The notes under the pieces are model-generated. The model was not told the DNA's origin and did no database searches. It saw only the letters and a list, made by a program, of their open reading frames with translations. The position numbers and the translations under genes are program-made. A DNA stretch of 64,000 bases. Source: Sphingobacterium composti. GTDB taxonomy: Bacteria; Bacteroidota; Bacteroidia; Sphingobacteriales; Sphingobacteriaceae. Positions 20,123 to 63,316 of this stretch are shown here, in pieces (position 1 is the first letter of the stretch; every line of letters starts with the position of its first letter). The stretch lies in assembly GCF_009829075.1 (NCBI RefSeq), contig NZ_WUQZ01000007.1, forward strand, positions 62,001-126,000, given 5' to 3'.

Positions 20123-20746
20123 ATGAAAAACATATTCAGTTTACTTGTATTGGCGCTTGTCATATTGCAATCCAATGCACAGAAAGAACCTGTAGAAGCG
20201 AAGAGAAGAACTGTTCCTACTGCAGAATTGCAAATTAAGATGGCTGTACAAGCAGCACCAGTAGAATTTAGAGATAGTGCTAAAGTTTACGGCTATAATA
20301 GTGAAGGTGAGTTTGTAACACTAAGAGAAGGTACAAATGGCTATATCTGTTTGGCACCTAATTATAAAATGTCGGTTTATTATGCTTATTGCTATCCAGA
20401 AAGTTTGGAGCCTTTGATGGCTCGTGGTAGAGAATTAATCGCTGAAGGTAAACGCAAAGAAAGAGATAAAATTCGTGAACAAGAATTCAAAGAAGGTAAA
20501 CTTTTTATTCCGCAACAACCAACTACACTTTACGGCTACTGGGGAGAAGCTAAAGATGTAAACCCAGAGACAGGCGAAATCAAAGATGCTAAACGCAGAT
20601 ATGTGATTTATGTTCCTTTTGCTAAAGCGGCTGATTTAGGTCTTTCGAACAAACACAATAACCTTGGCATGCCATGGCTAATGGACGAAGGAACTTACAA
20701 AGCGCATATCATGATTACTCCCCCTTTAGAAGCACACAAACATTAA
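20123..20746 (+). CDS. Secreted protein of unknown function
   Basis: 207 residues. Signal peptide at residues 1-19 (cleavage near NAQ). I do not recognise the family. Visible features: an early basic segment EAKRRTVPTAELQIKMA, the phrase VYGYNSEGEFVTLREGTNGYICLAP, a strongly charged helix (about residues 108-135: AEGKRKERDKIREQE), LYGYWG, and a C-terminal segment PWLMDEGTYKAHIMITPP ending in His-rich AHKH. Two cysteines remain in the mature part. It has its own -7 box. Its end lies against the 3' end of the group II intron remnant, but the frame looks intact. Confidence 0.75.
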   Translation: MKNIFSLLVLALVILQSNAQKEPVEAKRRTVPTAELQIKMAVQAAPVEFRDSAKVYGYNSEGEFVTLREGTNGYICLAPNYKMSVYYAYCYPESLEPLMARGRELIAEGKRKERDKIREQEFKEGKLFIPQQPTTLYGYWGEAKDVNPETGEIKDAKRRYVIYVPFAKAADLGLSNKHNNLGMPWLMDEGTYKAHIMITPPLEAHKH

Positions 20747-20764
20747 AATATCATTAGATACATA

Positions 20765-21508
20765 GAGTAGGAAGGTAATCATTATTTGATTACCTGACCC
20801 CTCACACCACCGTACGTGCCGTTCGGCATACGGCGGTTCATTAAACATTAACAGTTTTTTTTGGGGGACTATTATATCGGTAAGATATAGTAGTCCTTCT
20901 TTCTTTAAGAATGCATTGGTAAGCGTTCGTTTCAAGATTGGGCTATTTACCGTTCGCCACGGACCTTTACGGGTATTACCCCATTGATAAGCTTTGTTAG
21001 AAGTCACCCCTAGTTTCTTAAGCTCCTTCACACGGGTCTTGATCCGTTTCCATTGGCTCCAGTAGCAGAGTCTAACACGGCTACGTGTCCACTCGTCTAG
21101 GATTTCAAATATGCTTCGCGATTCACTTAACTTGAAGTAACTACCCCATCCTTGGTTCAATCGTCGGATTTGTATCATCCGTTTCCCCATAGACACAGGG
21201 CTTCTGCGACTAGTAATCTTACGGATTGTATCCTTGTAGATACTAATACTTTTACCGTGTACACTAATGCCTTTGCTGCCCTTCTTATGGTAAAACGTAA
21301 ACCCAAGTAACCGCGTGCGCCAAGGACGAGTAACAACACTCTTTTCTAAATTTACTTTCAGTTTTAGTTCCTTTTCAATGTACTTACTAATGCTTTCCAT
21401 TACACGATCCCCAGCACGTTTACTTCTAACATAAATACTACAGTCGTCTGCATAGCGAACAAAACGGTGACCACGGCTTTCCAGTTCCTTATCTAGTTTA
21501 TCTATAAA
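20765..21508 (-). mobile_element. Group II intron remnant (class C-like), 3' part only
   Basis: Spans the partial maturase and the catalytic RNA domains V and VI. Domains I-III and the first half of the protein are missing, so it cannot splice or move on its own. The left (5', minus-strand) junction coincides with the arm of a Rho-independent hairpin (21504-21548) in the same orientation, the usual target of class C introns. The exact 3' end is uncertain by about 10 bases. Confidence 0.82.
20774..20839 (-). ncRNA. Group II intron domains V and VI
   Basis: On the minus strand ACCGCCGTATGCCG pairs with CGGCACGTACGGTGGT (core 20806-20837), giving the typical long stem, two-base bulge and short capping loop of domain V. 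Aligned to CCGTAT, the triad reads CGC rather than AGC. Domain VI follows as GGTAATCA (20781-20774 on plus coordinates reversed) pairing with TGATTACC around a 5-base loop. Confidence 0.8.
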
Positions 21509-60914: not shown

Positions 60915-61793
60915 TTAGCAAATTATTTTTAATGCACTTGATTTAACATTTATTTGCAAATCACCATTCATATTTATTGGCTCCCCATCCACGTGAATAG
61001 GTCCATCATCCTTACGTTTGATCAGGATATCTCTACCTGGAATTATTTCAACATATTCTGATTGATCAGCTGAACGATTGAACAAATGAAAGACCATCAT
61101 AGGCAAAATATAAAGCGGAAACTTATGTACAATACAAACATCCAATATACCATCATTTACCGAAGCATTTGGGGCTATATAGGCATTATTTCCATATTGC
61201 GGAGAGTTTGCGACAGAAATCATAAAAGCCTCACGCTCATATTCCACGCCATCTATTGTCAACTGATATTTACTGGGCTTATAATTACTAATTACATTTA
61301 TAGCAGATCGCAAATAACCAATTGGTCCACGTATAGAATCACTTGCAAATCTATCCGAAACCGAAGCGTCAAATCCCAAGCCTGCAATGTTGAAAAATGG
61401 TTTATCATTAATCACACCACAATCTACTCCAACGGTCTCAAATCTATTCAAACGATTGATAGCTGAAGTTTCATTCATTGGAATACCTAAATAAAGCGCT
61501 AATCCATTTCCCGAACCTTCAGGAATAATTCCCATTGGTATATCCGAACCAATTAATGCTGAACCTAATTCATTTATTGTACCATCACCACCGACTGCGA
61601 CGACCGCATCATATCCTTCTTCAATTGCCATTTTACCCAATTCATATGCATGATTGGGCTTAGTCGTCTGTTGGAAAGTTGGTTTAAACTTTTGCATATC
61701 CAACGCCTCTAAAACTTTTTTGTTAAAAGCAGTTTTTTTCTTGCCTCCTGATATTGGATTAATAACGAAAAGTATCTTTTTCTGTTCTTGCAT
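60915..61793 (-). CDS. Diacylglycerol-kinase family lipid kinase (YegS/DgkB-like)
   Basis: 292 residues from the ATG at 61793, giving the usual MxxQKKILFVINPISGGKKK start; a four-codon longer frame is rejected. Core motifs: the nucleotide-binding VVAVGGDGTINELGSAL, GIIPEGSGNGLALYLGIP and DGILDVCIVHKFPLY, ending VDGEPI. Enzymes of this family phosphorylate diacylglycerol, sphingoid bases or related lipids; Sphingobacteria make sphingolipids, so a sphingoid substrate is possible but not shown. Cotranscribed with yciH. No clear -7 box upstream. Confidence 0.9.
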   Translation of the reverse strand: MQEQKKILFVINPISGGKKKTAFNKKVLEALDMQKFKPTFQQTTKPNHAYELGKMAIEEGYDAVVAVGGDGTINELGSALIGSDIPMGIIPEGSGNGLALYLGIPMNETSAINRLNRFETVGVDCGVINDKPFFNIAGLGFDASVSDRFASDSIRGPIGYLRSAINVISNYKPSKYQLTIDGVEYEREAFMISVANSPQYGNNAYIAPNASVNDGILDVCIVHKFPLYILPMMVFHLFNRSADQSEYVEIIPGRDILIKRKDDGPIHVDGEPINMNGDLQINVKSSALKIIC

Positions 61794-61865
61794 AACTAAA
61801 ATCAACTGAGTAAATATAGGCTAAATTTTCAATAGGCGTAAAAATTAATATAATACCTACCAATT

Positions 61866-61897
61866 TTTGGGATAATAATAAAAGTGTTGTAACTTTG
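61866..61897 (+). promoter_or_regulatory. Promoter of metK (-33 and -7 boxes)
   Basis: TTTG at 61866-61869 and TAACTTTG at 61890-61897, separated by 20 bases: the best full match to the Bacteroidota promoter (TTTG-N19..21-TAnnTTTG) in this window. Predicted start near 61904, just before the riboswitch-like element, giving a leader of about 160 bases. Confidence 0.72.
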
Positions 61898-61910
61898 CGC
61901 CAAATATAAA

Positions 61911-61983
61911 TGTGGACTGATTTGCATTTTACAAATCTTAAGTAAAAAGGGAGATTGCAACCACGGAAAAAAAGTGCTAAAAA
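61911..61983 (+). promoter_or_regulatory. SAM-II riboswitch-like leader of metK
   Basis: The conserved blocks of the SAM-II aptamer occur in order: stem arm GTGG (61912-61915), CTGATTT (61917-61923), ATTGCAA (61954-61960), closing arm CCAC (61961-61964), and GTGCTAAAAACC (61974-61985). Loop bases GCATTTT (61924-61930) can pair with AAAAGTGC (61970-61977) with one bulged G, forming the expected H-type pseudoknot. The gene downstream makes SAM, a fitting target. A 30-base insert relative to the short classical form separates the two loop blocks. About 80 bases separate the element from the ATG, so how it controls expression is not clear. Confidence 0.68.
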
Positions 61984-62062
61984 CCATTCATTCATTCGTT
62001 TTTCCACTTCTATCTATTGATAGCACCTCCATTTTATTAGTGTTAAAAACAAAAAAATAAAT

Positions 62063-63316
62063 ATGGCATACTTATTTACATCCGAATCCGTATCGGAAGG
62101 CCATCCTGACAAAATTGCCGATCAAATTTCAGATGCATTAATTGACAATTTCTTAGCTTGGGACGAAGATTCACGCGTAGCAATAGAAACTTTAGTTACG
62201 ACAGGACAAGTTGTATTAGCTGGAGAGGTTAAGTCTAAAATTTATCTTGATGTTCAAAAGATTACACGTTCTGTAATTGAAAAAATAGGCTATACCAAAT
62301 CAGAATATATGTTTGAGGCGAACTCTTGTGGTGTCCTTTCGGCCATACATGAGCAATCCGCTGATATCAATCAAGGTGTGGATCGTAAAAGCAAACAAGA
62401 GCAAGGTGCTGGTGACCAGGGAATCATGTTCGGCTACGCGAGCAACGAGACTGAAAATTATATGCCTTTGGCTTTAGACCTTTCTCATCGTTTGCTATAC
62501 GAATTGGCAGAATTGCGTCGTGAAAATAACCAAATCACCTACCTGCGCCCTGATGCAAAGTCGCAAGTAACTTTAGAATATAGCGACGACCATAAACCAC
62601 AACGTATTGATACTATTGTAATTTCGACCCAGCACGATGAGTTCGACACGGAGCCAAATATGTTGGTCAAGATTACAGAAGATATCAAAAATATATTGAT
62701 CCCCCGTGTAAAGGCGCAATTAAAGCCTGAATTACAAACTTTATTCAACGATGATATAAAATTCCATATCAATCCTACTGGAAAATTTGTAATCGGCGGT
62801 CCGCACGGTGATACGGGATTGACAGGGCGTAAAATCATTGTAGATACATATGGTGGCAAAGGTGCTCACGGTGGCGGTGCTTTCTCAGGAAAAGATCCAT
62901 CAAAAGTTGACCGTTCAGCAGCTTATGCTACTCGTCATATTGCGAAGAATTTAGTTGCTGCTGGTGTAGCTGACGAAATATTAGTACAAATTTCTTACGC
63001 TATCGGAGTAAAAGATCCAATGGGGATTTATGTAAATACGTATGGCACAAGTAAGGTGAATTTTACTGATGGTGAAATTGCGCAAAAGATTTCAGACTTA
63101 TTTGATATGACACCTTATGGTATCGAAACAAGACTAGGTTTACGTAATCCTATTTATGCCGAAACTGCAGCTTACGGTCATATGGGAAGAACAAATAAGA
63201 AAGTAACGAAGACTTTTGACAATACAAATGGCGAAACTAAAACCCTTGAAGTGGAATTATTCACATGGGAAAAATTAGATTACGTCGATAAAATAAAAGA
63301 AGCATTTGGCATCTAA
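62063..63316 (+). CDS. metK: S-adenosylmethionine synthetase
   Basis: 417 residues, usual length for Bacteroidota (E. coli 384). Motifs: [35 protein letters not shown], and [19 protein letters not shown] with the ATP/phosphate loop. It makes SAM from methionine and ATP. The upstream leader resembles a SAM-II riboswitch and would provide feedback control by product. A strong terminator begins at the stop codon. The methionine aminotransferase at 3.2 kb uses the same precursor but is far away. Confidence 0.97.

Follow-up and report, generated by a model that had tools for sequence, protein, structure and literature searches.

Long-loop SAM-II riboswitches were listed for Bacteroidetes by Weinberg et al. 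2010 (PMC2864571, Table 1), and a few cases of the RF00521 type were already mentioned for the Bacteroides group by Corbino et al. 2005 (PMC1273637). Bacteroidota lack Shine-Dalgarno sequences, and their promoters follow the -33/-7 consensus TTTG/TANNTTTG (PMC6847099). In a Flavobacterium psychrophilum transcriptome, five Rfam predictions were confirmed as expressed, and SAM-II is not named there (PMC9723704); a Sinorhizobium SAM-II paper (PMC9373788) and a Bacteroides transcriptome paper (PMC7366714) belong to the same literature. In the literature searched, control by SAM-II in Bacteroidota was not treated by any title or abstract opening.

Here we describe a leader of this kind before metK at the end of a 64,000-nucleotide stretch of the Sphingobacterium composti genome (the window). 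When the whole window was analyzed with cmscan, the SAM-II long-loop model RF01726 matched at 61906-61990 on the + strand with 51.7 bits and an E value of 5.3e-7, above the gathering score of 44, and the match ended 72 nt before the metK ATG. It is the one RF01726 match of the whole source genome at E <= 0.001. A SAM-II-type element before metK in a Bacteroidota genome had been proposed in an initial annotation, and both the RF01726 score and the TIGR01034 assignment of metK support it. The model named there was RF00521 (SAM_alpha), which was absent among the window matches listed up to E 10, RF01726 matching instead; the SAM-V model was likewise absent among these matches. The aptamer, its parts and the gene are as follows.

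61906..61990, + strand: SAM-II long-loop aptamer (RF01726 match)
61911..61915, + strand: P1 5' strand UGUGG, pairing with 61961-61965, outermost pair U-G
61925..61949, + strand: variable loop hairpin, UUUUAC (61927-61932) with GUAAAA (61942-61947)
61953..61964, + strand: core GATTGCAACCAC, holding GCA of P2b and the P1 3' strand
61972..61984, + strand: aptamer 3' strand AAGTGCTAAAAAC, holding P2b and the conserved GCTAA, and doubling as the partner of the putative anti-aptamer strand
62063..63316, + strand: metK, methionine adenosyltransferase (TIGR01034, 504.4 bits, cut-off 309.4), at the window's end

The sequence elements pointed out earlier were all found, and in the order described: GTGG (61912-61915), CTGATTT (61917-61923), ATTGCAA (61954-61960), CCAC (61961-61964) and GCTAAA (61976-61981), with the metK ATG at 62063. 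Neither the long loop nor metK as the target is unusual: in Bacteroidetes the form described has long loops (Weinberg 2010, PMC2864571), and the element lies before metK across the family. Because Weinberg et al. already listed this form, the aptamer is a new member and not a new class; as a member of its sequence family the riboswitch can be called secure, and it is ordinary for its group. It would be expected to bind SAM.

Elsewhere in the window, the group II intron model RF00029 matched at 20762-20838 on the minus strand (50.8 bits), and a YADD motif, typical of reverse transcriptases, was read by eye in the stretch beside ORF 20726-21400.

RF01726 was detected in 139 of 151 family genomes, 76 of 80 genus genomes and 45 of 296 genomes of a phylum sample, with one copy per genome listed with it. 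Since searches of more than 40 genomes ran stricter filters, misses there may be weak matches. All 210 loci fetched via RF01726 (200 genomes, some twice) had a metK start, and in 209 the aptamer pattern lay at most 400 nt before it; the exception, L136, looks like an aptamer variant, as does L236. A chance resemblance with no riboswitch behind it is practically negligible against the E value of the match, its spread through the family and its position before metK at 209 of 210 loci. Of the 139 family and 76 genus matches to RF01726, only some contributed leaders to the comparison. Representatives were taken from these leaders, 92 from 263 leaders and 34 from 67 Sphingobacterium leaders; L073 (a duplicate of L029 from the same genome), L080 (P1 not parsed) and L101 (partial metK) were left out, and L247 was misparsed within the 92. 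The aptamer pattern was missing from 35 of 299 metK leaders, one of which, L267, does carry RF01726.

For P1, whose 5' strand was located independently of its partner, the second pair was intact in all 239 unique leaders, 175 having U-A and 64 having A-U. These are compensating changes of the sort that the initial annotation had proposed to look for across relatives; being two-sided they support the helix, though they may represent few events. The loop holds 28 bases against 3 in the RF01726 model, that is about 25 extra, close to the earlier figure of about 30. Arms of the same loop paired better than arms exchanged between leaders (mean percentile 0.183 in 34 Sphingobacterium leaders and 0.157 in 46 overall), and for 21 of 47 loops at most 5% of shuffles folded as well. 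Judged by these pairings, the extra bases are a hairpin that varies with compensation. In Flavobacterium-type and Kordia leaders (L120, L125, L283 and L284), hairpin-like inserts were seen between P1 and the 3' strand, outside the P1 loop; with inserts there as well as in the loop, the class seems to tolerate them at two places.

The sequence evidence for the pseudoknot P2 is only moderate. Among the 92 own pairs, 89 had the two-base complement of P2a, versus 79.8 after shuffling (sd 2.9, maximum 87 of 500), and the three-base test gave 36 versus 31.3 (sd 4.1, maximum 43), which is not significant. A pseudoknot of GCATTTT (61924-61930) with AAAAGTGC had also been suggested. It can be written in the window, but its seven pairs are kept in only 22 of 67 unique Sphingobacterium leaders, and as a conserved helix it was rejected, with six pairs in 12, five in 29 and four in 4 of these leaders and the 3' side identical in the pairs listed. 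The GCATTTT bases instead belong to the variable loop hairpin, in which TTTTAC (61927-61932) faces GTAAAA (61942-61947). The fold of the window's leader alone hardly beat its shuffles (z -0.43). A leader peptide starting from the ATG inside AATGTGG was also considered and dropped, as a T precedes the first G of P1 in only 29 of 92 leaders.

Upstream of P1 lie two elements of a putative promoter.

61866..61869, + strand: -33 element TTTG, 20 nt upstream of the -7 element
61890..61897, + strand: -7 element TAACTTTG, beginning 21 nt before P1

This arrangement of TTTG, 20 nt and TAACTTTG fits the Bacteroidota promoter consensus. This would place the transcription start near 61902, some nine bases ahead of P1; in the published consensus the T stands at -12 and the G at -5 (PMC6847099). 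Of 240 unique leaders, 225 have the -7 motif 14-27 nt upstream of P1; in eight control windows the count was 1-19 of 240. No RF01726 match was obtained in 12 of the 151 family genomes; metK was matched in ten of these, and its start could be read in nine. All nine aptamer-less leaders retain the -7 element, whose end lies 21-23 nt from the ATG in six, 42-44 nt in two and 66 nt in one, and no Rfam match at gathering score was obtained at these nine loci. At two loci where metK lacks SAM-II (L282:451-546 and L290:435-532, one a Chitinophaga MAG), SAM-I/IV (RF01725), another class of SAM sensor, was observed.

Between the aptamer and the ATG, three further features were recognized.

61998..62009, + strand: putative anti-aptamer strand D1 GTTTTTCCACTT, GTTTTT complementary to 61979-61984 and CACTT to 61972-61976
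62010..62026, + strand: small hairpin CTATC-TATT-GATAG (inverted repeat), including TAGCAC (62021-62026)
61987..62046, + strand: C-rich, G-poor leader stretch (13 C and 5 G of 60)

In a column profile of the 34 Sphingobacterium leaders, D1 is the standout conserved block of this region, and its complements in the aptamer 3' strand are AAGTG and AAAAAC. TAGCAC is complementary to GTGCTA (61974-61979), and in the window's leader it scores highest among the partners of that strand. The best partner was D1 in 25 of the 34 leaders, TAGCAC or a near form in five (the window's included) and another segment in four. Against dinucleotide shuffles, the downstream stretch fitted the 3' strand with a mean percentile of 0.207, 16 of the 34 leaders being under 0.1, while its fit to the core (0.497) and to the P1 5' strand (0.428) was not clearly better than that of shuffles. 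L092 was compared with the intact L197: the flanks are near-identical, the gap spans the aptamer core and D1, and the promoter, the first P1 bases and the last part of the leader are retained. On this alignment, L092 has cleanly lost D1 and most of the aptamer. L092 and L093 come from two genomes of the window's genus that are without the aptamer.

The downstream stretch (D) was then compared over the 92 leaders, with D under 70% identical and dinucleotide shuffles as the reference. The mean percentiles were 0.307 for GATTGCAACCAC, 0.300 for the 3' strand, 0.369 for the P1 5' strand and 0.473 for the promoter control. The four most enriched hexamers of D were GCAATC (20, expected 1.2), CTTTAG (12, expected 2.2), TGCAAT (11, expected 1.8) and TTTTAC (30, expected 10.9), and their reverse complements occurred in the leader's own aptamer in 20/20, 12/12, 10/11 and 27/30 cases, respectively. 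Several hexamers not complementary to the aptamer were also enriched in this open scan, so shared ancestry plays a part. Fourteen pair-specific contingency tests were run on the leaders. Strong associations were obtained for CTAAAG/CTTTAG (12,13 / 0,67; p 1.4e-8) and GTAAAA/TTTTAC (27,24 / 3,38; p 1.9e-6), which by our reading follow clades; AAAAC/GTTTT gave p 0.064, AAGTG with CACTT and GTGCTAA with CACTT each gave p 0.05, and the remaining nine tests were null or undefined.

Changes on both sides of a helix were seen in Flavobacteriaceae-type leaders. In 34 hairpin leaders with the pattern GCTAAAG-C-AGX...YCT-Y-CTTTAG or a near form, the next outward pair X-Y is kept in 30, as T-A, A-T or G-C, and broken in four; shuffling gave a mean of 15.7 and a maximum of 26 in 10,000. 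By our reading of the metK tree, this compensation requires at least three double changes; a formal test on the tree found at most 2 independent pairs, too few for a sign test. A further 32 GCTAAAG leaders showed no fit to this hairpin pattern. Within Sphingobacterium there is little variation on the aptamer side of the A2:D1 helix, GTGCTAA of the 3' strand being near-invariant in the genus, so conservation and complementarity are documented there and not covariation. RNAalifold on the 34 Sphingobacterium leaders returned helices around the aptamer core only and not the A2:D1 hairpin, and no good partner strand was found in the Parapedobacter-group leaders L048, L050 and L051. A second leader type, in which GCTAAAGGCAGTG is followed by a GACG-loop-CGTCAAATC hairpin, was observed in eight leaders (L251, L253, L254, L262, L264, L268, L286 and L287).

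Alternatively, shared ancestry and the richness of D in U and C could have produced its complementarity as a by-product, the aptamer acting in some other way. The post-aptamer stretch has more C than G in 92 of 92 leaders and still in 91 of 92 with the aptamer-pairing bases masked (upstream control, 52 of 92), so D is C-rich even outside the bases that would pair. Own and foreign D differ little, the own D being weakly better than the D of other genera (mean percentile 0.385, KS p 0.024); the duplex of the window itself is unexceptional, with 75% of the D of other genera and 19% of single-letter shuffles equal or better; and the enrichment of non-complementary hexamers points the same way. However, dinucleotide shuffles preserve the make-up and yet fall short, the promoter control is no different from its shuffles, the Flavobacteriaceae-type leaders carry compensating changes and D1 is a conserved block in Sphingobacterium. 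We hold the by-product explanation possible, if on the unlikely side, and an anti-aptamer strand downstream of the aptamer is likely from the sequence comparisons.

Taken as a whole, we consider it fairly probable that metK is controlled by an RF01726 riboswitch with its own promoter, in which a SAM pseudoknot competes with anti-aptamer pairing. The aptamer, the putative promoter, the conserved complementarity and the joint loss are documented at the level of sequence, and we infer that the aptamer binds SAM, that SAM turns metK off and that the two pairings are mutually exclusive in the cell. The long-loop SAM-II riboswitch on metK would be transcribed from its own Bacteroidota promoter. When SAM is scarce, D1 (in the window's leader also TAGCAC) would pair with the aptamer 3' strand GTGCTAAAAAC; with the 3' strand sequestered, the pseudoknot would be blocked and metK expressed. 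When SAM is plentiful, it would lock the 3' strand into the pseudoknot; D1, together with the C-rich, G-poor stretch after it, would then stay unpaired, and metK expression would drop. Anti-aptamer pairing and the SAM pseudoknot share bases 61972-61984 and so should exclude each other.

The initial annotation was right that so long a gap before the ATG does not fix the mode of control. In the window's leader, 82 nt part the end of GCTAA from the metK ATG, and the stretch after GCTAA measures 55-170 nt (median 76.5) in 120 leaders. Blocking of a ribosome site within P2 itself, as described for metX SAM-II (PMC10907184), does not fit because of these 82 nt; the spacing in the 120 leaders and the place of the element in a phylum without Shine-Dalgarno sequences (PMC6847099) also argue against it, and we rate it as very improbable. 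SAM-controlled intrinsic termination has been proposed for many alphaproteobacterial SAM-II elements, for many of which putative terminators were reported (PMC1273637); it is quite improbable here, with no terminator-like site found in 61780-62140 of the window's leader where 0.3 were expected.

A further alternative is a translational switch, in which the D strand freed by SAM pairs with the A-rich start region. In its favour, 61986-62003 is 78% complementary to 62045-62062, and the predicted D:start pairs rise on average from 3.66 to 6.41 when the aptamer is held folded. Against it, the mean unpaired probability of the start region over the 92 leaders is 0.560 in the free and 0.550 in the bound state (Wilcoxon p 0.70), and by more than 0.05 it falls in 17 leaders and rises in 13; in this free-energy model the start region of the 92 leaders neither opens nor closes. 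We consider this switch rather unlikely. For the anti-aptamer model we favour, weakly and as a guess, that the freed C-rich stretch might let Rho stop transcription. The metK leader has the highest C minus G of the 21 window leaders (metK included), and a C-rich, G-poor stretch of this kind would suit Rho, far as that is from proof.

The source genome also carries three matches to RF00162 (SAM-I), and the first ORFs downstream of them are an O-acetylhomoserine sulfhydrylase gene, metE and metF.

C12:40144-40257: SAM-I riboswitch L301 (source genome, G000)
C1:33236-33337: SAM-I riboswitch L302 (same genome)
C10:27281-27379: SAM-I riboswitch L303 (same genome)

In the family, SAM-I was found in 148 of 151 genomes and both classes in 136, SAM-II alone in 3 and SAM-I alone in 12. 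Outside the family, SAM-I was present in 35 of 38 SAM-II genomes, and in 22 of the 38 the two classes lie at most 20 kb apart (distances in 28 genomes were taken by script, those in ten were read from match listings). In one genome (G178 C1:1273624-1274021), the SAM-II and SAM-I starts are 273 nt apart on opposite strands. None of 15 SAM-I loci examined gave a metK match downstream. A 2007 survey reported no species with both SAM-I and SAM-II (PMC2258182), and no later statement on their co-occurrence was found in the literature searched, which mostly excludes subscription journals; Rfam being public, the overlap may well be known already. With both classes together, these genomes form a natural system of two RNA sensors of one molecule on different genes. 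SAM-II has been described as having lower affinity (PMC1273637). A wider reading, which we offer tentatively and regard as unlikely in its entirety, would be a Bacteroidota-wide metK platform of SAM-II that works with neither Shine-Dalgarno sequence nor intrinsic terminator, SAM freeing the anti-aptamer strand and exposing a C-rich Rho entry; SAM-I would act on methionine synthesis and the weaker-binding SAM-II on the SAM-making enzyme. If true, two unrelated sensors of one metabolite would be divided by gene, with two set points.

Compared with known systems, the leader shares P1, core, long loop, occurrence in Bacteroidetes and a cis-regulatory role with the SAM-II long loops of RF01726 (Weinberg 2010, PMC2864571), and no difference in the aptamer is visible; an anti-aptamer strand and a promoter are not mentioned in the part of that description available. 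With the SAM-II/metA element RF00521 (Corbino et al. 2005, PMC1273637), it shares P1, a putative pseudoknot and a promoter few nt before P1, whereas the window's leader has a long loop, a metK target, no terminator found and no RF00521 match up to E 10. SAM-V, too, is an H-type pseudoknot sensor of SAM reported from Bacteroidetes (PMC6061858). Its model, however, is not among the window matches up to E 10. Riboswitches acting through Rho (reportedly Hollands 2012) include those of mgtA and ribB. Like these, the present leader is C-rich and G-poor, with no intrinsic terminator found. Of its two parts, the sensor is ordinary for its group and the putative switch is less expected. For riboswitch action in Bacteroidota, which do without Shine-Dalgarno sequences, the putative conserved anti-aptamer strand makes the question concrete and testable in one widespread case.
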